Positions 16,484-36,389 of a stretch of DNA of 37,073 nucleotides are shown in pieces (within the stretch, counting starts at the first letter, position 1; every line of letters begins with the position of its first letter). The position numbers and the translations under genes were made by a program. The stretch comes from a virus. The notes beneath the pieces were generated by a model, which did no database searches, was not told the origin of the DNA, and saw only the letters and a program-made list of their open reading frames with translations. Location: the IMG/VR virus record IMGVR_UViG_3300030116_005821, positions 1 through 37,073 of that record; one strand, 5' to 3'.

Positions 16484-16695
16484 TACATGCTCTCAAGTCT
16501 AAGCCACTTTTCTAATGCATATTCCCATTCTTTAAATGTAGCTTCATTATTATTATAGCGTATCCAAGTTTTATCAAACTCATCCCATAAAACTTGTCGC
16601 ATATGTCTTTTATTATAATCATACTCTTCTGTAAAATTAAAATCTTTAATTCTAGTCAAAAAGTGCTTCTTTAGGTTCTTCTTGGTATTCGACAT
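16483..16695 (-). CDS. 70-aa hypothetical protein
   Basis: Start at ATG 16693-16695, preceded by AAAGGAGGAGGTAGGT, rather than eight codons upstream. The product MSNTKKNLKKHFLTRIKDFN... is basic at the N-terminus and rich in Tyr/Trp/Glu later (WEYALEKWLRLESM). It lies between the primase-helicase (43-base overlap) and the PP-loop enzyme, with coupled stop and start. No family recognised. Confidence 0.6.
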   Translation of the reverse strand: MSNTKKNLKKHFLTRIKDFNFTEEYDYNKRHMRQVLWDEFDKTWIRYNNNEATFKEWEYALEKWLRLESM

Positions 16696-18328
16696 ACCTA
16701 CCTCCTCCTTTAATATCATAACTTAATTTACCCATTCCAGGACGTCCATTTTTGTACTGAAATCTTATTTTATGAACATGAATACCAACATAATCTTCAT
16801 CTTCACTTCTATGTCTATGAACTGTAATTGCATTATCGCATTTATTAAACCAATTTGCTGATCCAGATATATCATAAGGCGTTGGTACAATCGGTCTTCT
16901 ATTATTGTCATTTTCCATTTTCTTTGGATGTGCTACAACCCATATATGCATTTCATTAATTTTGGCAAAGGCATTTAGTTCTGCAAGAACTCTAGAAATA
17001 TACAAGGTTTCATTTTCGCCACTTCCAAATTTATGTTCTAATGTATTCCAAGGATCAACAATTAATCCATTTAATCCATGCCTATAATTTAACAATTTTG
17101 CGGTATCCATAATAGATTTAATACTAACTGAATCTTCTTGAGTACCTATAAACTTAATATGATCGTTTAATATAAACATAGAATCTCTAGCAGTTTGTTC
17201 AGACATTTTATGCTCTCCATAAAAAGGTTTTCCAGCAAACTTGCCCACTAATTTAAGTAGATGATGTTTTATAGGAAAATTCTCTGCTGAAAATATACCA
17301 AACTTCCAACCATGATTTTGGATCATATTTATCATAAGGGCATCCATCCATTCAGATTTACCCATATTAGGAACTCCAGTTACAACAGTTACTTCACTAT
17401 GACTAACACGATAATGATCATCTACAGACATCCATCCCGTACTTAACCCTTTATGTTCTGGAGCATTCATTAGTTCAATAGCTTCATCAGTTATATCTTC
17501 AATTAATACCACTCCCTCTATTGGATAAGGATGAGCATTACTTATAATGTCAACAATCTTATCTTTACCATGCTTTACAAGAACTTCATTTAAATCTTTG
17601 CAGCCTTCAGGATATGTAACTTTAAAACACTTTTCCCTTCCAATCCTTCTCGATAGTTCACTTTGTAATGCATTACCATTTGGGTCGTTATCAGTACATA
17701 ATATAACTGTTTTAGCATTCATTAGATGTTCTTCAGCACTAAGCAAGTATGAAAACTTTTTATCTGTAGGCGTTGAATTTGGAGCAATAGCACCATCAGG
17801 AACTGATACCGCATTAGTAAATCCACTCTCAACTAAAGATAAAGCATCCATTTCACCTTCAGTTATAATGATGGTCTCCATCCCAACCATATGATCAAAT
17901 CGATAAAAACATTTTTCAGCATTTTTACATTGCTTAAACTGTTTATCTGCTGTTCTAGATTTAATGTTGACAACCTCCCCACCTTTATAAAATGGAAACT
18001 GTATCCATCGATCTTTAAAACCAATCTTCTCAGATATAAGCGTGTTTTCAGAAAGCCCCCTCTCAGAAAACCATTTAACAACTTTTCCAGGAAGATCACT
18101 TATAACTTCTTCTTTAGGTTTTTCTATCGGAGGGATATATTCTTTTTTAGATTTTTTATTCAAGCTACCCCTCCACCCACAATGATGACATAGCCAAACA
18201 CCTTCATCAATATTAACTGCCAAGCATGGGTCATAAGATTTTTTTCTAGTAGATGAACATTTAGGACATACAACCTTTTGCTCACCAAACCCATTACTGA
18301 TATATATTCCATGATCTTCAAAATTCAT
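16652..18328 (-). CDS. Bifunctional primase-helicase, T7 gp4 / Twinkle type
   Basis: 558 aa from the second ATG, chosen for GGAG spacing and the ATGA overlap with the upstream gene. It makes primers and unwinds DNA at the fork. Domains in order: zinc ribbon (C21, C24, C47, C50), TOPRIM (E157-G-E with D213-N-D215), linker, and RecA-like helicase with Walker A T-G-V-P-N-M-G-K324-S, Walker B L-I-V-D425 and a VAHPKK segment. The primase zinc, TOPRIM and helicase motifs all look intact. It lies beside the initiator. No phage DNA polymerase is present, so the host polymerase is probably used. Confidence 0.9.
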   Translation of the reverse strand: MNFEDHGIYISNGFGEQKVVCPKCSSTRKKSYDPCLAVNIDEGVWLCHHCGWRGSLNKKSKKEYIPPIEKPKEEVISDLPGKVVKWFSERGLSENTLISEKIGFKDRWIQFPFYKGGEVVNIKSRTADKQFKQCKNAEKCFYRFDHMVGMETIIITEGEMDALSLVESGFTNAVSVPDGAIAPNSTPTDKKFSYLLSAEEHLMNAKTVILCTDNDPNGNALQSELSRRIGREKCFKVTYPEGCKDLNEVLVKHGKDKIVDIISNAHPYPIEGVVLIEDITDEAIELMNAPEHKGLSTGWMSVDDHYRVSHSEVTVVTGVPNMGKSEWMDALMINMIQNHGWKFGIFSAENFPIKHHLLKLVGKFAGKPFYGEHKMSEQTARDSMFILNDHIKFIGTQEDSVSIKSIMDTAKLLNYRHGLNGLIVDPWNTLEHKFGSGENETLYISRVLAELNAFAKINEMHIWVVAHPKKMENDNNRRPIVPTPYDISGSANWFNKCDNAITVHRHRSEDEDYVGIHVHKIRFQYKNGRPGMGKLSYDIKGGGRYVEYQEEPKEALFD

Positions 18329-19128
18329 TCTGAACTCCATTTGCTATAAATATTAGCAAACTTCGTCAGCCCATTTTTTGATTTCTTTCTTAATGAACGA
18401 AGGGATAATAAGTTTTTACTCCAAAAATCATTGTAAGTAGCCCATTCAATTACGGACCAAACTTCAGTATCTTCAAACTTATCAACCTTAATTAATTTAA
18501 AAAGATTGTTAATTGATTCATTAACTAAGTTTTTATCTTGACTCCAATACTTAGATACTAACTTACTATGCACCTTAGATTGTTTGTTATAAAATTGACG
18601 AACAATTCTATATAAATATTCATACTGCTTTTCATTAATATCTCTTAAAAGCTTTATCTCCAGAGGATTCTTATTAGACTTACTGTGTATAATATTATTA
18701 GTATAATAATATATATCGTGGGGGGCGGTAGTGGAAATAGGGCTTTGATCGTGATTAAACACAACAGAACGCTTCTTTTTATCTTGATCCACTTCTGTCT
18801 GTGGCGTAGTGGTATCATTGATTTTGTTCTTTTCCACTTCTTCGTAGCGAGGAGTGGTTAACCATATTAATCTACTTTTATATTTCATCGTAACTTCATC
18901 TCTTATAAGGTTAAGATTGATATGTCCACACTCCCTTAGTGTGCCTAAATATTTTGATACTGATGATTGACTATAACCTAAAGCTTTTGAAAAATAAAGA
19001 TTGGTTTTAGTGCAATAACCATTATCTAAAGTTGCAGTTATTTCACAGTACAATAATTTTTCTCTACAAGATAAAAGATTATCATACCTAACATTTGAAG
19101 GGATGTACCCTATGTATGCATGTTTCAT
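18325..19128 (-). CDS. Replication initiator with N-terminal winged helix
   Basis: 267 aa from ATG 19126-19128, preceded by AAAGGAGAAACA. A longer frame upstream lacks a ribosome site. Residues 20-75 look like a winged helix (CREKLLYCEITATL, SKALGYSQSSVSKYLGTLRE). A Thr/Lys-rich linker and a C-terminal helical domain (residues about 170-265) follow, as in phage replisome organizers that load the helicase. The stop overlaps the primase-helicase ATG. Around 18691-18715 the coding DNA is very AT-rich, which could serve as an unwinding element. Origin function is speculative. Confidence 0.65.
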   Translation of the reverse strand: MKHAYIGYIPSNVRYDNLLSCREKLLYCEITATLDNGYCTKTNLYFSKALGYSQSSVSKYLGTLRECGHINLNLIRDEVTMKYKSRLIWLTTPRYEEVEKNKINDTTTPQTEVDQDKKKRSVVFNHDQSPISTTAPHDIYYYTNNIIHSKSNKNPLEIKLLRDINEKQYEYLYRIVRQFYNKQSKVHSKLVSKYWSQDKNLVNESINNLFKLIKVDKFEDTEVWSVIEWATYNDFWSKNLLSLRSLRKKSKNGLTKFANIYSKWSSE

Positions 19129-19136
19129 TGTTTCTC

Positions 19137-19296
19137 CTTTTTGGTGGTTGGGGGAAGAAAAAGGAGTAACTCCCCCCGAGTCGTTGGTATGACACATTTG
19201 GGTATATAGTAACCACCATCACTAAAACTTTTTCCTTTTTTATACCCAACAAATATAACCATAATATACTTTTTATACTAGTATTATATAAACCAA
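19137..19296 (-). promoter_or_regulatory. Leader region before the initiator gene
   Basis: About 160 bases without a convincing gene. It holds a perfect 10-bp palindrome ATACTAGTAT (19275-19284) in AT-rich DNA with TATAAT-like matches, and a G/C-rich hairpin segment with GGAGTAACTCC inside opposed G and C runs (about 19150-19178) upstream of the initiator ribosome site. It could carry a promoter and a translation-control hairpin for replication. No single element is proven. Confidence 0.4.
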
Positions 19297-21966: not shown

Positions 21967-22127
21967 TCTGAACCCTCCCCTAATTTGATATTATATAAAT
22001 TAGCTACCTTCTTTAAAAGTATTTCAGTATAATACTTTTTATCGGATGTCATTTCTAAGGTGTATCCCATACCCCAAAGATATTTGATTGCATCGAGACA
22101 TTCTTTTTTAGTGACTTTATTTAACAT
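21963..22127 (-). CDS. 54-aa hypothetical protein, first gene of the early operon
   Basis: ATG 22125-22127 with AAAAAAGGAGTTTTAAA as ribosome site. Product MLNKVTKKECLDAIKYLWGM... ending KLGEGSE. It is the first gene after the promoter at 22155-22183, so it would be the earliest expressed of the large minus-strand operon. First genes of such operons often encode small host-takeover proteins. Here that is only context. Helical, soluble, no motif recognised. Confidence 0.65.
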   Translation of the reverse strand: MLNKVTKKECLDAIKYLWGMGYTLEMTSDKKYYTEILLKKVANLYNIKLGEGSE

Positions 22128-22154
22128 TTTAAAACTCCTTTTTTAGTGTACAAA

Positions 22155-22183
22155 AAATTATGGTGAATTATAAATAGAGTCAA
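22155..22183 (-). promoter_or_regulatory. Sigma70-like early promoter (minus strand)
   Basis: On the minus strand TTGACT (22178-22183) is followed after exactly 17 bases by TAATTT (22155-22160). The -35 matches consensus at 5 of 6 positions. Transcription would start about 10 bases further and reach the first early gene at 22127 with a short leader. This is the best promoter match in the window for the operon down to 11150. Confidence 0.65.
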
Positions 22184-22462
22184 GAAAAACTTTGTTAAAT
22201 GTTAATATTATTTGATTTACCGAGGAGAAAATATAAATCCAATCCAAAAATATAAACCAAAATTATAAATAAGAATTATAAATTTAGGACCAAAATTATT
22301 TAATATTTTCAATATTTCAAATTTTCGATTTAAGGCTACAAAATCTTTTAGGTGAACTCAGTATTGACTCAACCTATTTAACGAGGTTTTAGAGCTATTT
22401 TTGAGCCTTATTTGGACCTATTTCGACACCTTTTTAACTCCATTATTGAGGGTAAGGGATAC
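22184..22462. other. AT-rich intergenic region with phased repeats
   Basis: No ORF of note. 22230-22300 holds near-repeats around ATAAAYCCAA and AATTATAAAT. From 22374 a CTATTT/CTTATTT motif recurs at 22374, 22395, 22407 and 22418, with a related CTTTTT at 22430: spacings near one or two helical turns, which suggests bent DNA. A TTGACT also occurs on the plus strand at 22364-22369. It could be an origin or promoter-control region. Confidence 0.4.
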
Positions 22463-22489
22463 AAAAAAGCCCTCTAAAAAAAGGGCTTT
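22463..22489 (-). terminator. Rho-independent terminator
   Basis: AAAGCCCT (22466-22473) pairs with AGGGCTTT (22482-22489), loop 8 nt. On the minus strand the stem is followed by a run of six T. It lies just downstream of the 22516-24011 genes and upstream of the early promoter at 22155, so it separates two minus-strand units. Read on the plus strand the tail is TTTGTTTG, weaker. Confidence 0.75.
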
Positions 22490-22515
22490 GTTTGTTTGGT
22501 ATGTTAAAAGGGTTT

Positions 22516-22665
22516 TTAATATGGCTTTTTTAAATTTACTAGCCATTTATTTTTTAGCCTTAATGAGTTAACTTTCCTTTTTAATTTGTTGATCTTATGA
22601 CTTTTAAAAAGATTTAAAGCCACTAAAAAAACAATTAAAAAAACTATTAATATTTCATTATTCAT
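22516..22665 (-). CDS. 49-aa single-TM miniprotein
   Basis: ATG 22663-22665, with GAGGGGGTTACAAA upstream. MNNEILIVFLIVFLVALNLF then a very basic tail (KSHKINKLKRKVNSLRLKNK...). One N-terminal membrane segment about residues 5-20, Nout/Cin orientation likely. Last gene before the terminator at 22463. Unknown function. Phages often use such proteins for superinfection exclusion, but nothing here proves it. Confidence 0.65.
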   Translation of the reverse strand: MNNEILIVFLIVFLVALNLFKSHKINKLKRKVNSLRLKNKWLVNLKKPY

Positions 22666-22680
22666 TTTGTAACCCCCTCA

Positions 22681-24011: not shown

Positions 24012-24052
24012 GATTTGTTTTTCCTTTTATTTAATTAATTAGTGATAGTTTT

Positions 24053-24082
24053 AATGTAATGTTAAAAACAAATATGAGTCAA
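24053..24082 (-). promoter_or_regulatory. Promoter candidate for the 22516-24011 unit
   Basis: On the minus strand TTGACTC begins at 24082 (TTGACT, 24077-24082), followed at 17-18 bases by TTACAT/TACATT. The -35 and following C are identical to the early promoter at 22178-22183. The -10 is weaker, so transcription may be moderate or helped by an activator. The gene start is 42 bases downstream of the -10. Confidence 0.5.
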
Positions 24083-24285
24083 ATTTTTTTTGTATTTTAA
24101 GCAAAAAAAACTTGTAAAAAACTTTATCAAAGCCCAAAGCATCCAATCAATTTTAAGCCACCTAAAACCCACCTAAAACAAGAGATTACTACCTAAAGCT
24201 ATAACAACACTAAAAACTTTTTTTATGGCGTTTAAAGTGGTAATTTGGGATTCTATCGAGGGTAGAAAATAGAGTAAAAAAACTA

Positions 24286-24353
24286 TTGACATTTGATTGG
24301 TTTTAACAGTACAAAAATTAGCTATTGACATTGTCAATTATTGGAGTTATTAG
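24286..24353 (+). promoter_or_regulatory. Tandem TTGACA promoters with a palindromic operator-like site
   Basis: CTATTGACATT occurs twice, giving consensus -35 boxes at 24286-24291 and 24325-24330. The second has TATTAG (24348-24353) at 17 bases. That -35 is embedded in the palindrome TTGACATTGTCAA (24325-24337), a classic overlap of operator and promoter. Transcription would run toward the repeats and the small terminase gene. Confidence 0.5.
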
Positions 24354-24469
24354 TACATACTAAATCCTTCGTTTTATCTTTTTAAGGTAGGTTACTACCT
24401 ATAAAACAAGATCGTTTATTTTTGCTATTAAATTGGGCTTATTTGGACAATTGTATATTTTTTATGTAA

Positions 24470-24608
24470 ACTTGTAACACTCTGTTATACTTGTAACAAT
24501 GTGCAACGTCTCAACCTGGGGCGTCTCAACCCGTTACAACTACCATGGTAGCTGCTTAAATTATGGTAGCTGTATGGTAGTTAAATGGTAGCTGTTGCAA
24601 CGACTACC
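24470..24608. repeat. Cluster of direct and inverted repeats (iteron-like)
   Basis: Three repeat types follow one another: ACTTGTAACA at 24470 and 24489 (19-bp period), with an imperfect inverted copy CGTTACAACT at 24532; CGTCTCAACC at 24507 and 24522 (15-bp period); ATGGTAGCTG at 24545, 24563 and 24585, plus ATGGTAG at 24574 (periods 18, 11, 11). CTACCATGGTAG (24540-24551) is a perfect 12-bp palindrome. GCAACG occurs on both sides. The position just upstream of the small terminase favours a pac/cos or origin site. Confidence 0.65.
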
Positions 24609-24841
24609 CTATAGGCGTATGACTTTTTTTGTATTGTGGTCTACCCTCATTCCCCACAAAATAACATATAAGAAACCCTCAATCTAAATTTTAAAAAAAA
24701 TCTCAAAAGAAAGACCTTGTTGTTATTACTGTATAGGGGTATTGGTATCTTTGGAGGATTCAGGTCGCACAATTTTAAATAGGTATTGTATTAGAGTATA
24801 AAACCTCTGTAAAATATACTATAACGACAAAAAGGTCTTGT

Positions 24842-25477
24842 ATGAGTATAAATTTACCTGATAAATGGAAACCAGAGAAAGTAAGAGCTATTGAAGTGTT
24901 AGTTTCTAATCCAGGAGCTAAGATAGTTGATGTTGCTAAAGAGGCTGGAGTAACAAGAAATACTGTATTTTTATGGTTGAAAGATCCAGAGTTTGTAGAA
25001 GTATTTTATCAAAGATATATGGTGTCATTTGGGTCTAAATTGCCCTCAGTTTTAGAGTCTATGATACGAGAGGCAGAGGCGGGTAATGTACAAGCTGGTA
25101 GACTTGTTTTAGAACACTCTGGAAAGTTAATAAAGCGTGTAGAAGTAGCCAATCACCAAAGCCCATTTGAGAAGTTTTTAAACTCTAACAATAGTGAAGT
25201 AGAAGCTGACTATGAAGAAATTTCTGAAGATAATATACAAGTCCTACCACAACGACCTATTGTTCCTAAAAAAGTAAAGCACCCTACTAAAAAAGAAGCA
25301 CTAAAAAATCTAAGAGCTAAACAGATAAAACTGAAGAAAAGAAGAGAGGCTTTACGATGGAAAAAAAGAGCAAAAGCAGTTGGAATACCTCTACTTGGAA
25401 AAGGAAGACCTACTCCAGCACAAAAGAAAGCTTGGCAAGACAAAGTTATAGCAAAAGAGAAGTCCACTAATCCCTAG
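24842..25477 (+). CDS. terS: Terminase small subunit
   Basis: 211 aa. The N-terminal DNA-binding domain reads VDVAKEAGVTRNTVFLWLKD (helix-turn-helix, about residues 33-52), followed by a helical oligomerisation part (LESMIREAEAGNVQAGRLVL) and a basic C-terminal third rich in Lys/Arg. It recognises the packaging site and feeds DNA to the large subunit. The gene is alone on the plus strand while the large terminase is on the minus strand 2.7 kb away, an unusual split. The repeat region directly upstream may be its target. Confidence 0.75.
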   Translation: MSINLPDKWKPEKVRAIEVLVSNPGAKIVDVAKEAGVTRNTVFLWLKDPEFVEVFYQRYMVSFGSKLPSVLESMIREAEAGNVQAGRLVLEHSGKLIKRVEVANHQSPFEKFLNSNNSEVEADYEEISEDNIQVLPQRPIVPKKVKHPTKKEALKNLRAKQIKLKKRREALRWKKRAKAVGIPLLGKGRPTPAQKKAWQDKVIAKEKSTNP

Positions 25478-25561: not shown

Positions 25562-25588
25562 CATATATATATTAACATATATATATTA
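25562..25588. repeat. Tandem 13-bp AT repeat
   Basis: CATATATATATTA occurs twice, at 25562-25574 and 25576-25588, in the gap between the small terminase and the convergent zinc-ribbon gene. It is also self-complementary over the ATATATAT core. Possible DNA-bending or unwinding element, or an mRNA end structure. No gene overlaps it. Confidence 0.5.
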
Positions 25589-25608: not shown

Positions 25609-25637
25609 CTCCAGTGAGAAGTGGAGTTATTTTTTTA
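25609..25637 (+). terminator. Terminator candidate after the small terminase gene
   Basis: CTCCA (25609-25613) pairs with TGGAG (25622-25626), loop 8, followed by TTATTTTTTTATT on the plus strand. The stem is short but the T-run is good. It lies 130 bases after the small terminase stop and overlaps the 3' end of the convergent zinc-ribbon gene. Confidence 0.5.
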
Positions 25638-26699: not shown

Positions 26700-26904
26700 C
26701 AAAAAACTCCTTGCCTAGTCTTTTAGCTTCTAGGTATTTATCTTGATTATTTATAATATATTCTTCTGCTTGAGCAGTTGCCCAAGAGATTGGATCTTTG
26801 AGTATTTCTTTTATATCGCCTTTTAGATCAACATCAAGATTGTTGATTTTGTCTAGGCGTTTGACGAAACTGAGTAAAGATTGATTGTTGTCGTGTTTGC
26901 TCAT
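26671..26904 (-). CDS. 77-aa hypothetical protein overlapping the portal gene
   Basis: Start at ATG 26902-26904 (MSKHDNNQSLLSFVKRLDKI), preceded by CAGAGGCTTTA. It is helical and acidic. Its first 71 bases overlap the portal 3' end in another frame. The 3' end overlaps the gpG-like gene by 29. Such a long overlap is unusual here, but the frame stays open and the ribosome site fits. Possibly a head accessory. Function unknown. Confidence 0.55.
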   Translation of the reverse strand: MSKHDNNQSLLSFVKRLDKINNLDVDLKGDIKEILKDPISWATAQAEEYIINNQDKYLEAKRLGKEFFDEIENIRSS

Positions 26905-28147
26905 TAAAGCCTCTGTTATTATCAATAATGGCTTGAGCTTGCTCTAGTGTTAAGTCTTTATTTTCACGAACCATTATTTTTGCTTGAGTAGTTAGATTAT
27001 TTTGTAAATCAAAGTTATCTTTTAAGATTTGATCTTGAACTGTTTTAGGATATTCTACTTCATAGAAGTCTATCCCAAATTCTTCAGAAAGATTAATATT
27101 ATTATAAGCTGCAATGGTTCTTTCTATTTCATAAAGATCTTTTTCATATAATCTCCATAGAGCAATATCATCATAGTAATCTTCTTTTCTTTCCATGTCT
27201 TTAACCATCAATGAAATACCACTAGGTACTTCTCCACCAGACTCAGCCCATTGTATCCATAAATGATTATTGGTGGCTACTAATTCCATTTGAAATTTTA
27301 TGTTGTCAATTGCCTCTGTAATATTTCCACCAGGGCTAGTAATATTATACTTCCCTTCTTCTCCCATGTCTAAAATAGTATTAGATCCAGCACGAATCAT
27401 ATTTTGATCTGCTTGAAGTCCATTAACCCAAGGCTGACCAAACATGTTATAGCGTAATCCTAAATTCATTTCTGTCATTGATATGTTAACTTGCTCATTG
27501 CAGTTAATAATATCATTTGCACCCTCTACATAAAAAGAGTCAATTTGATCTTCTCGGTGAGTAAATGAAAAAGGTAATATACCATAAGGATTTTCTTCTT
27601 CAAAAATAATAGCTCCTTCTTCATTCATAATTACATTCTTTTCTGAATCCCAATATTCCCATTGAAGTTCAGTTGTATTACTAAGGTCTGCAACTTGATT
27701 AAGTAATGGATATGTAATTGCAATAGGTGTAAAAGGATCATCATTAAAATAGGATTCAAAATAATAAATTGGTCTGTATTCAAAGCGACCATTCTTCCAA
27801 AACACTCTGTTAGCAATTGTTCCTAGCAAACGAGTCATACGCTCTGAATGTTTTAATCTAACATCTTTTGTTGGCGTTAAGCTTTCATATAGGTCTGAGG
27901 TATTGCCAGTGTTTCTTTTTGCACCAAGCGTATAAATACCACTTATTTTATTTATAAACTTTCTAGTAAAATTAGTTAACGTAGGAGGTATCTCATTAAA
28001 AGCATCTCCTGTAAAATAATTTTTAATATACTGTTCAGTTGATGTTCCTGAATAGTAGTCTAGATGCTTTCTGATTTCAAACCTTCTTTGTTGAGCCATC
28101 ATCATCTTTGCTTCTGTTAGTTTATCCTTTATAACTTTATCTATCAT
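26834..28147 (-). CDS. Portal protein
   Basis: 437 aa with typical portal content: N-terminal helix (MIDKVIKDKLTEAKMMM), DYYSG and NEIPPTLTNFTRKFINKISG, a beta wing with QWEYWDSEKNVIM and GILPFSFTHRED, the long channel helix region (NEQVNISMTEMNLGL, later VKDMERKEDYYDDIALWRLY), and a Gln-rich C-terminus. It forms the dodecameric ring at one head vertex. Directly downstream of the large terminase (ATGA overlap) on the same strand, as in nearly all tailed phages. Confidence 0.85.
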   Translation of the reverse strand: MIDKVIKDKLTEAKMMMAQQRRFEIRKHLDYYSGTSTEQYIKNYFTGDAFNEIPPTLTNFTRKFINKISGIYTLGAKRNTGNTSDLYESLTPTKDVRLKHSERMTRLLGTIANRVFWKNGRFEYRPIYYFESYFNDDPFTPIAITYPLLNQVADLSNTTELQWEYWDSEKNVIMNEEGAIIFEEENPYGILPFSFTHREDQIDSFYVEGANDIINCNEQVNISMTEMNLGLRYNMFGQPWVNGLQADQNMIRAGSNTILDMGEEGKYNITSPGGNITEAIDNIKFQMELVATNNHLWIQWAESGGEVPSGISLMVKDMERKEDYYDDIALWRLYEKDLYEIERTIAAYNNINLSEEFGIDFYEVEYPKTVQDQILKDNFDLQNNLTTQAKIMVRENKDLTLEQAQAIIDNNRGFNEQTRQQSIFTQFRQTPRQNQQS

Positions 28148-29457
28148 CTTTGAATCCTCTTCATTTCCCTATTTCTCATTGGAAATCTGTTTATTATGAA
28201 ATACCTAAAAGCATCATTTCCATGATCGTGATAACCATCTTTTATAGGTTCTTCCTTTATCGGCTTACCATCTTCAGACTCAGGATACCTATACTCTTCA
28301 AAATCTTCAATTACATCAACACATTTTCTGTCAACATGTATTCTTCTTATGCCCTCTGCACTTTCAAAAAACCCTCTTGTATAAGCCACACTATTTATAA
28401 TATTTCTACTTTTTCTGTCTCTAGTGTAAAGTATTCTCATACCGCTTCTTCTAAAAATCTCTGTATCGGCTGCTCCACTTTGTCCTTGAATATTACTACC
28501 AGCTGGATCTCCATAATAGCTTACAATAGGATAACCTTTTACTTTAATCATTTTAATTAGATCTTCTGTTCTGATATTTTTCTTATGCAGAATACAATCA
28601 AAAATTCTAATATGATCAAACTCTCCATCAAAGTATGTCTGCATAAATAAAACCGCTGGCATCCTATAGCCAAAGTCAATTGAGCAATAAGTAGGAAGAT
28701 TAGGGTCATATGGAAAGTTTCCTGTATCTAACTCACGATTAAAATCCCAAACCTTGCCTTCAAATACAGAAAATTCTGCTCCGAATTCTTGACCAAAAAG
28801 TTCTTTAGACATATTTCGTTTTCTTTCAATAATAGCTGGATCATTCAATCCTAGTGGAAACTCGTATTGGTTTTTCCAAGAAGGTGATGAATAGTTGGAC
28901 CACATATCATCTATTTCGCCTAACTTATACAGATCATAAATCCAATTTCTTCCTTCTGGTGTAGTAATAAAAATTACTTTACCTTTTCTACCAGCTACTG
29001 TAGGAGATAAATACATATCCCAAATCTTTTTATTCATCTTGGCTACCTCATCAATAACCAAAAGATCTAAACCCTCTCCCACAAGACTTGATGGATTATC
29101 TGCTGACATACCCTCTACTATTGTTCCCCATTTAAAACGAATATACATATCTTTTTCAGAAGCTTTATCAATATCATCTCCATGCCCAACTACCATTCTC
29201 TGCCATATCTCTCTGAAAATTAATCTTGCTTTTTTATAAGACATCCCAACAACCCATATACGTTTATTGGGTTGTGAAGCTACATAGGTTGCCTCCATAG
29301 CACTAGCCCAAGTCTTTCCAAATCTCCTGCCACACACAATAACATTAAACCTCGCATTGTACTTTTTTGGATAGTGAAGAGCTAGCTGACCATCATGCGG
29401 TTTGTATCCTAAATATTCAAACCATTTTTTTTTAAATTCGTAATTTTTCTCTTGCAT
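28144..29457 (-). CDS. terL: Terminase large subunit (packaging ATPase/nuclease)
   Basis: 437 aa. Walker A G43-R-R-F-G-K-T49, Walker B L-L-V-I-D136-E137, coupling motif T-T-P-E-G. The C-terminal nuclease domain keeps its metal residues D261 (SIDFGYR), D317 (YYGDPAGS) and the DGYH-D411-HGN-D415-AFRYF motif. It translocates DNA into the procapsid and cuts concatemers. The start is at 29457 after AT-rich promoter-like DNA. It reads opposite to both the small terminase and the scaffold/capsid genes. Confidence 0.9.
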   Translation of the reverse strand: MQEKNYEFKKKWFEYLGYKPHDGQLALHYPKKYNARFNVIVCGRRFGKTWASAMEATYVASQPNKRIWVVGMSYKKARLIFREIWQRMVVGHGDDIDKASEKDMYIRFKWGTIVEGMSADNPSSLVGEGLDLLVIDEVAKMNKKIWDMYLSPTVAGRKGKVIFITTPEGRNWIYDLYKLGEIDDMWSNYSSPSWKNQYEFPLGLNDPAIIERKRNMSKELFGQEFGAEFSVFEGKVWDFNRELDTGNFPYDPNLPTYCSIDFGYRMPAVLFMQTYFDGEFDHIRIFDCILHKKNIRTEDLIKMIKVKGYPIVSYYGDPAGSNIQGQSGAADTEIFRRSGMRILYTRDRKSRNIINSVAYTRGFFESAEGIRRIHVDRKCVDVIEDFEEYRYPESEDGKPIKEEPIKDGYHDHGNDAFRYFIINRFPMRNREMKRIQR

Positions 29458-34733: not shown

Positions 34734-34964
34734 ATGGCAAAAAAAGAAAAAGAAATGCCTAAAGAAGCTGAAATAAAATTATTTGATAAGACTTATAAAG
34801 AGTCTGAATTAAATGATGAGCAAAAGGTTATGATTAATCATGTTGCTGACTTAGATAGAAAGATTGGTTCTAGTGAATTTAATCTTCAACAATTAAGGTT
34901 TGGCAAACAAGCCTTTGTAGATGCATTAAAAGTAAGTTTAGAGAAGAATGAAGAAGAAGAATAA
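34734..34964 (+). CDS. Small acidic phage protein, copy B (complete)
   Basis: 76 aa and complete: MAKKEKEMPKEAEIKLFDKT onward, with AATAGGAGTTAATA as ribosome site. It shows where the truncated copy at the left edge should start. The core is almost unchanged (T5A, T8K and R59K in copy A numbering). It may match DUF6447, which is a recollection. The stretch before the stop holds the start of the lipoprotein gene. Confidence 0.75.
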   Translation: MAKKEKEMPKEAEIKLFDKTYKESELNDEQKVMINHVADLDRKIGSSEFNLQQLRFGKQAFVDALKVSLEKNEEEE

Positions 34965-35088
34965 GAGTAACTGGGTTACATCAACATCCTACAATATCCC
35001 TATAAAGTTCGTCTTTATAGGGGTGTTGTTAATATTTTGTATTGCTTGTGATGGTGGTTGGTCTATTGCAGGCTGGGAGGTGAAGTGA
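34948..35088 (+). CDS. Small lipoprotein-like membrane protein, copy B
   Basis: 46 aa. MKKKNKSNWVTSTSYNIPIK, hydrophobic residues 20-33, then C-I-A-C as relaxed lipobox. The mature tail is short (DGGWSIAGWEVK) and differs from copy A, whose tail is longer and has another Cys. TGA overlaps GTG of the following gene. Conservation of the membrane part and Cys supports a real lipoprotein, possibly an outer spanin. Confidence 0.6.
   Translation: MKKKNKSNWVTSTSYNIPIKFVFIGVLLIFCIACDGGWSIAGWEVK
34998..35022 (+). ncRNA. Hairpin inside the lipoprotein gene, copy B
   Basis: CCCTATAAAG (34998-35007) and CTTTATAGGG (35013-35022), a perfect 10-bp stem around TTCGT. It corresponds base for base to 252-276, with a C-G to T-A pair change and G-U to A-U repair. 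The loop length is the same, 5 bases. Confidence 0.55.
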
Positions 35089-35411
35089 ATGAAAAACCTC
35101 AAACTGCTAGGTCTTACAGGACTAATGTTATTGATGATAACGCTGTTATTAGCATCAACCTTAAATGGATGGCTCAAATTATCGTATTGTGTTCTTGTCT
35201 TGTATGGGGTTATTACCGCATTGAAACAAGAATTAAAAAGCTTGAAGAAGGAATGTTGGATGCAAATGCAGAGATTAGGAACTTACTTGCTAAACACCAG
35301 TTGGAGGAAACTAAATCCAGAAAAGAACTGGAGGAGAAGTTATCCTTCTATGAAAAAGAATTACAAATCAATTTAAACCCTATGAGCTGGGGTAAAAGGA
35401 AAAAGAAATAA
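35085..35411 (+). CDS. 108-aa single-TM coiled-coil protein, only in copy B
   Basis: GTG 35085-35087 chosen (MNEKPQTARSYRTNVIDDNA...) since GGGAGGTGAA lies just before and GTGA couples it to the lipoprotein stop. A membrane segment at about residues 29-43 (AQIIVLCSCLVWGYY) is followed by a long coiled coil and a basic end KRKKK. No counterpart exists in copy A, where the two flanking genes abut. Topology is like an i-spanin, so with the lipoprotein it could form a two-part spanin. Confidence 0.7.
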   Translation: MNEKPQTARSYRTNVIDDNAVISINLKWMAQIIVLCSCLVWGYYRIETRIKKLEEGMLDANAEIRNLLAKHQLEETKSRKELEEKLSFYEKELQINLNPMSWGKRKKK

Positions 35412-35728
35412 TGGATTTTATGGCTATATATGGTGAGGCAGGGATGATAGGTGTCGTAGGTGCTATGTTTGTATACCTAGTAGTGTCCTTGTCAAATAAG
35501 TCAGCCAAACAGCAAGAGGTTTTAGAAAATTTAAAAGTAGAAAATAAAGGTCAATCTGAAACTTTAGAAAATATGGAGGGTATGATTATAAAGTTAATTA
35601 ACAGATGGAATCAATCTGATGATAAGTTAGATAGAAAGTTTGACGCATTGACAAAAGAAGTAAATGACTTAGATAACCAAGTATCAGAAGTTAAAGGTTC
35701 TCTAAGTAGAATTAATGGGAGACATTAA
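35411..35728 (+). CDS. Membrane-anchored coiled-coil protein, copy B
   Basis: 105 aa, 97 identical with the left copy. MDFMAIYGEAGMIGVVGAMF, TM helix, then heptad-rich helix ending LSRINGRH. TAATG joins it to the genes on both sides. Most changes lie in the coiled-coil surface (Q37V, D40N, T68Q, S86D), none in the TM segment. Holin- or spanin-like role as for copy A. Confidence 0.75.
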   Translation: MDFMAIYGEAGMIGVVGAMFVYLVVSLSNKSAKQQEVLENLKVENKGQSETLENMEGMIIKLINRWNQSDDKLDRKFDALTKEVNDLDNQVSEVKGSLSRINGRH

Positions 35729-35874
35729 TGGATAGTTTAAAAGTATCTGGTACAAGTTTTGCAAGTCAAGCAATAGTTTTTATGGACATGCTACCTTATT
35801 TTTTAGGTGTAGCTATAGCTATAATGAATATTATTTACCTGTATTATAAAATAAAAAAAGTAAAGGAGTCTTAA
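35728..35874 (+). CDS. 48-aa single-TM protein, holin candidate, copy B
   Basis: MDSLKVSGTSFASQAIVFMD with one long membrane helix and basic tail KIKKVKES. Five changes from copy A (V15A, I28V, V32I, N44K, E45V). Same TAATG coupling. Candidate holin by size and position. The endolysin that would follow in copy B lies beyond the window. Confidence 0.7.
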   Translation: MDSLKVSGTSFASQAIVFMDMLPYFLGVAIAIMNIIYLYYKIKKVKES

Positions 35875-36051
35875 ATGGTCGGCAAGATAATAGCTGAATA
35901 CATATTAGATGATGAGGTCAAAGCAGATTTGATTGCATCAGTTAATAAATCCGTTAATGTGCCCATGATAAATGAGAAGACAGAAGCTAAGATTTTAGAA
36001 GCTATCTGGGAATTATTTGAAATGGCAATTAAAAAAAAGTTGGGGTTATAA
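35875..36051 (+). CDS. Conserved 58-aa protein, copy B
   Basis: MVGKIIAEYILDDEVKADLI..., differing from copy A at four conservative positions near the N-terminus and identical through the remaining 48 residues. That degree of constraint in so small a protein suggests a tight interaction, perhaps with the membrane proteins beside it. AAAGGAGTCTTAA precedes the start. Confidence 0.7.
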   Translation: MVGKIIAEYILDDEVKADLIASVNKSVNVPMINEKTEAKILEAIWELFEMAIKKKLGL

Positions 36052-36261
36052 ATGATGAATGTAATAATTACCTTACTCACAACCTCATGTTTGCATGGGT
36101 CAATCCCAGACATGATTCAATATCCAGAGAGATACTCTGATGTATCATACTCTTTATATGGTGATGTAAAAAAGAAAAAGAAGAAAGGTAAAAAGATTGG
36201 TGGTGCAAAAGGAAAGAAGTCTAAGAAAGGTTTCTTCTCAAAGATATTTGGTAGTAAGTAA
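36052..36261 (+). CDS. 69-aa protein with Lys-rich tail, copy B
   Basis: MMNVIITLLTTSCLHGSIPD..., same Tyr-rich middle and FFSKIFGSK end as copy A, six changes. The Cys after T-T-S is kept. The stop overlaps the next ATG (TAATG). After this gene the two copies stop being alike: copy A continues with a 94-aa basic gene, copy B with two other basic genes. Confidence 0.7.
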   Translation: MMNVIITLLTTSCLHGSIPDMIQYPERYSDVSYSLYGDVKKKKKKGKKIGGAKGKKSKKGFFSKIFGSK

Positions 36262-36389
36262 TGGCAAGGGTTAGCTGGATGTGGGGTGGTAAAAAGCATT
36301 ATGGTACATTGATTCGTGAAACTAAGACTCATAAGTTTGCCAGAACAAAAAATGGTAAGATTAAAAAAATAGTAAAAAAGAAAAAGTAG
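36261..36389 (+). CDS. 42-aa basic miniprotein, only in copy B
   Basis: MARVSWMWGGKKHYGTLIRE, then a Lys-rich end (KIKKIVKKKK). TAATG start coupling. Looks like a small beta-hairpin with a basic tail. No counterpart in copy A. Likely a DNA-binding or packaged peptide of the basic-gene cassette, function unknown. Confidence 0.6.
   Translation: MARVSWMWGGKKHYGTLIRETKTHKFARTKNGKIKKIVKKKK

Follow-up and report, generated by a model that had tools for sequence, protein, structure and literature searches.

We propose that the region 24467-24665 of the window (the whole 37,073-base stretch of DNA analysed, an IMG/VR record of a marine-type tailed phage) is on balance probably the packaging-initiation site, pac- or cos-like, of a phage lineage, as judged from sequence comparison and from its likeness to known terminase sites. 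Two observations underlie this proposal: a conserved bipartite signal, consisting of a short core and a downstream block, is found, in most of the family, directly ahead of the small terminase gene (terS) and at no other place in the examined genomes, and around this signal the sequence of a dense repeat array changes between lineages. The features of the site and the relevant genes are collected in Table 1.

Table 1. Features of the candidate packaging site and of its gene context, in window coordinates
Feature	Position	Strand	Remarks
Primase/helicase	16652-18340		encoded in the record
Replication initiator (HTH_36)	18325-19197	-	5.3 kb from the site
Promoter-like TTGGAC-18-TAAACT	24443-24472	+	left edge of the array; consensus scan gave TGGACA-17-TAAACT
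Repeat set 1	24467-24503	+	two units, each with TTGTAACA, at a period of 19 bp
Repeat set 2	24507-24531	+	CGTCTCAACC exact at 24507 and 24522, 15 bp apart; half-site GTCTCA
GTTACAACT	24533-24541	no strand	inverted partner of set 1 (TTGTAAC/GTTACAA); kept in L004/L005
Repeat set 3, CTACCAT/ATGGTAG array	24537-24595	both orientations	includes the palindrome CTACCATGGTAG
Lead-in CTACCCTATA	24604-24613	+	CCCTATAGG; in relatives CCCCTAGGGG or G-rich
Core GGCGTATGA (GGCGKATGA)	24614-24622	+	once in the record
Block CCCCACAAAAT, CC(C/T)C..AAAAT	24652-24662	+	37-40 bp after the core
Probable terS promoter TTGTAT-18-TAAAAT	24786-24815	+	TTGTAT...TATAATATACC in relatives; strongly conserved before the terS start
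Small terminase gene terS	24842-25477	+	211 aa, N-terminal helix-turn-helix, putative ring-type fold
Gene adjoining terL	26834-28147	-	no functional family match; probably portal, by position
Large terminase gene terL	28144-29457	-	opposite strand to terS

The site lies in the gap 24012-24841, which divides leftward early genes from the rightward 211-aa gene and which, at 830 bp, is the longest stretch of the record lacking an ORF of at least 60 aa, as an earlier note on this DNA had held; the runner-up, 21967-22680 (714 bp), is very AT-rich (24% GC in the surrounding kilobase) and would be an alternative place for an origin. The three direct repeats with periods of 19, 15 and 18/11/11 that the same note had described were recovered as claimed and were not matched in any of 1000 shuffles of the intergenic region made with dinucleotide composition preserved. 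The 19-bp period is formed by TAAACTTGTAACACTCTG at 24467 and TATACTTGTAACAATGTG at 24486, which share 83% identity; in the third set CTACCAT stands at 24540 on the plus strand and ATGGTAG, on the minus strand, at 24545, 24563, 24574 and 24585, in steps of 18/11/11. The 12-bp palindrome that had been reported is present at 24540-24551, and the recurrence of GGTAG/CTACC in both orientations over about 450 bp was likewise confirmed, with 11 copies in 24189-24645; since all 37,073 bases of the record hold 56, about 0.7 would be expected in that interval. The region contains one 7-mer five times in 70 bp, with seven exact pairs of 10-mers no more than 30 bp apart and 20 of 8-mers no more than 25 bp apart, and each of these counts was reached by 0 of the 1000 shuffles; every other 830-bp stretch of the 37-kb record has at most three copies. 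Promoter-like hits in the region were not more numerous than in shuffles, A-tract phasing (a proxy for bent DNA, as proposed for SPP1) was not unusual there, and Rfam and tRNA searches gave no match. The extent that had been assigned to the element, 24470-24608, holds for the repeats but stops short of the most conserved part, which lies just to the right, at 24604-24665.

This conserved part was delineated by comparison with relatives gathered in TerS searches (10, 80 and 80 loci; 118 distinct contigs overall). Two relatives are 95% identical to the window over the gap, and two others (L004/L005) about 75% identical in parts, whereas more distant relatives are unalignable over most of the gap and yet have both islands, the core and the block, in common. 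In the comparison with the approximately 118 related contigs the core-block pair always lay 140-260 bp upstream of terS (the core 228 bp upstream in the window), and in all 16 relatives having both elements their spacing is 37-40 bp, with unalignable flanks. The pair was found in 16 of 22 dereplicated upstream regions; the other six representatives are without it as searched, some of them carrying near-variants (L141, L146, L147). The core was searched with a simple pattern that misses variants such as GGGCGTACC (L146) and GGGGGGATGG (L147). In seven of 12 long contigs the exact 9-mer GGCGKATGA is present as a single copy, at this site; it was found nowhere else in the 12, and the other five are without it, most of them having variants. 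Furthermore, a scan of 2.9 million viral contigs that used DNA only (the core plus two copies of GAGCG) and made no use of the TerS protein returned 34 contigs, with the start of terS 144-252 bp downstream in 33 of the 33 loci checked. As terS is constant in these 33 loci and the gene flanking the site on its other side varies with the lineage (c0/c1, GP88 and others), the core-block signal belongs to terS. An exact scan for the motif GACTACCCTATAGG returned 61 contigs and was set aside, the region being common only to near relatives already known. The core was not found in HTVC026P, a distant TerL relative, and no named phage was matched either by 20-32 kb of the window as a DNA query or by TerS and the putative portal in tblastn.

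The gene downstream of the site is, by sequence families and a structural model, a small terminase. All 24 aligned TerS relatives matched PHROG small-terminase families, and the best Foldseek match of the TerS model is 2ao9, a protein of phage phBC6A51 (probability 1.00), a likeness in fold that constitutes moderate evidence because the E-value is 0.03 and the pLDDT 73. The probable terS promoter was not picked by the consensus scan. Between the block and this promoter some relatives have, at the equivalent of 24715-24800, a hairpin-like element (TAGTAGTA...TGCC, with the loop WWTWGGATTYA and GGCA/GGTGC) with apparent compensatory changes in its stem, which is possibly a small RNA or leader structure. 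Downstream of terS an AT-rich tandem, CATATATATATTA, occupies 25562-25588 and is followed by a terminator-like stem at 25609-25626 (+). As the first 1.2 kb of the record (1-1211) recurs near its end, at 34747-36265, with 86-91% identity, the record seems to consist of a genome unit of about 34.75 kb and 2.3 kb of a second strain, not of a tandem duplication or a true terminal repeat. The only contig from a cellular genome with a TerS relative in a search of genome contigs, L237, comes from a Flavobacterium MAG (JALRGT010000068.1); being a 3.3-kb contig at a coverage of 2.4 in a metagenome bin, it is weak as evidence of a host.

The array turns over around the fixed signal. Its motif is CTACCAT in the window clade, GAGCGTT in the largest group, TACGCCA in L088 and L142, and GCACGTTT in L141. 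In L004/L005 CTACCAT is kept with a different copy number, order and orientation; a stretch of 60 bp around the CGTCTCAACC pair is well conserved, set 2 surviving there as TCTCAA at the 15-bp spacing, and of set 1 only the second copy is found. In a near relative of the window (L002/L083) and in the GAGCG group, copies of the motif flank the core on both sides. We saw no co-variation of the array motif with the recognition helix of TerS: GAGCG arrays occur with several helices, the helix TRATIHNW is accompanied by GAGCG in L087 but not in L151, and of the close TerS relatives L158 and L159 only the former has an array. Co-variation with the helix of the initiator was likewise not seen among the approximately 13 relatives compared.

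This independence from TerS could also be accommodated if the array were a set of sites for a phage or host regulator of the divergent early and terS transcripts, with the core and block as parts of the same control region, an explanation that we regard as rather unlikely. It is consistent with the position of the region between divergent genes, with a promoter-like pair that overlaps the array, and with dyads typical of dimeric regulators, namely CTACCATGGTAG in the window and, in other relatives, the repressor-operator-like palindrome TGAGACTnAGTCTCA formed by GTCTCA near terS; clusters of GTCTCA also occur away from terS, at 5509-5619 in L103/G011 and 5138-5411 in L158/G018. However, some 175 bp separate the end of the array from the probable terS promoter downstream and about 450 bp separate it from the leftward gene, long distances for a simple operator; no regulator was identified, and the core-block pair with its fixed spacing stays with terS and not with the early genes. 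The last point also bears on the suggestion of the earlier note that the repeats are iterons of a replication origin, in this case bound by the HTH_36 initiator. Regularly spaced short repeats in the longest gene-free, divergent stretch of a record that encodes a replication initiator and a primase/helicase would fit such an origin, but we judge it improbable, given that the core is linked to terS, that the initiator gene lies 5.3 kb away and its product is 33-46% identical between most relatives, and that differences in the repeat motif are not paralleled in its recognition helix. Moreover, 24012-24841 has no DnaA box (TTWTNCACA), the eight in the record being at chance level, and the GC-skew test that had been recommended, once run, gave a coding-strand third-position skew of 0.15-0.28 in all four gene blocks, on either side and strand; since the skew follows gene direction, there is no switch at the site beyond gene orientation. 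An alternative origin inside the initiator gene was considered and dropped, there being no repeats of note there. Of the two functions originally offered, packaging has therefore gained ground, from the identity of terS and from a core tied to terS only, and the origin has lost it.

A neutral explanation, by which the array copies arose through local duplication beside a functional core and have no function, is possible for the array but not for the core, and we consider it quite improbable. In its favor, the array motif of several lineages is identical to what directly follows the core (ACTACCAT, GAGCG), some close relatives have no array (L159, L120, L151), and the window has lost one copy, with GACTTTTTTTG where L002/L083 has GACTACCATTTG. 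On the other hand, the copies stand in both orientations at non-tandem spacings, and the motif is kept in L004/L005 while order and flanks change, which together suggest selection on the motif.

We also took the ends of contigs to stand in for virion ends. Within 600 bp upstream of terS they are about five times as frequent as at greater distances. Of 76 contig breaks placed relative to the core, nine are right-hand contig starts located 11-40 bp past the beginning of the core; few such starts occur in the 60 bp that precede it, and left-hand contig ends lie at about +28 (G036), +32 (G046) and +34 (G037); in G036 an N-gap sits exactly in the core-block interval, its two sides nearly abutting with an overlap of about 2 nt. 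Another cluster of breaks lies 60-160 bp before the core, with breaks gathering at 100-150 bp, and in several relatives contig starts cluster at the place equivalent to the promoter-like pair at 24443-24472. Contig ends in the core-block interval are weakly above expectation. A cut between core and block would produce this pattern, and so would transitions from variable to conserved sequence in a mixture of strains: because breaks are raised across the whole 600-bp non-coding stretch, the signal is weak for the core, and this together with the cluster upstream of the core means that strain variation could explain the breaks. Near-full-length contigs end elsewhere in 16 of 18 cases and within 300 bp of the terS start in two, one of which is a closed circle; several relatives close as circles, with overlaps of 99 bp (G030), 98 bp (G001) and 87 bp (G004), an outcome that headful packaging of a circularly permuted genome and replicating DNA would both give.

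Returning to packaging initiation, the anatomy of the site resembles that of the SPP1/SF6 pac, and by this analogy we posit that a TerS ring would assemble on the array and its flanks, that TerL would introduce the first cut within or next to the core-block interval, in or near 24614-24655, and that packaging would then run along a concatemer. The helix-turn-helix of TerS would not read the repeats singly; these would, as in SPP1/SF6, give the nucleoprotein complex its shape. It is conceivable, though very improbable, that neither TerS nor the initiator but a third protein, a phage accessory or a host factor, reads the array as a swappable address tag; related phages in one cell could in that event keep their packaging apart despite near-identical TerS. 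If the packaging-site proposal is right, an uncultivated marine phage family has gained, from comparison alone, a candidate packaging signal defined by its sequence. It would also follow that the repeats of such sites evolve separately from the small terminase around an unchanging short core, which bears on how ring terminases find their site.

Among known systems, the iteron origins of plasmids and phages resemble the window site in their clustered short repeats and their non-coding, moderately AT-rich setting. Instead of direct iterons of about 17-22 bp, however, the window has spacings of 19, 15 and 18/11/11 in mixed orientation, with no adjacent initiator gene, no DnaA box and no skew switch. 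The lambda-like cos (cosQ-cosN-cosB) is closer, as it too lies just upstream of terS, comprises several recognition subsites and combines a G-rich core with repeated elements within about 200 bp; unlike at such a cos, most near-complete contigs of this family end elsewhere and no overhang is known. In lambda-like phages the repeat motif is thought to follow the TerS helix, whereas at the window site the repeats do not co-vary with the TerS recognition helix. In the pac of SPP1, the terS promoters and the beginning of the gene are covered by direct repeats in three sets; boxA is swapped for other repeats in SF6, boxB around the cut is 90% identical, and the DNA-binding domain of the SPP1/SF6 TerS has little sequence preference (PMC4737164). 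In the model proposed for SPP1, TerS binds both pacL and pacR and loops the DNA, upon which TerL cuts pacC (PMC7617512). The window site departs from SPP1/SF6 in the 37-40 bp spacing of core and block, in the partial inversion of its array and in repeats that change wholly between lineages. It shares with them a position upstream of or over the terS start (228 bp for the window core, in agreement with all 33 scan loci), the close packing of repeat sets and promoters, with three direct-repeat sets in 24467-24595 and hence within about 200 bp, and the combination of one phage-specific repeat set with sequence that is conserved, at the cut in SPP1/SF6 and at the core in the window.
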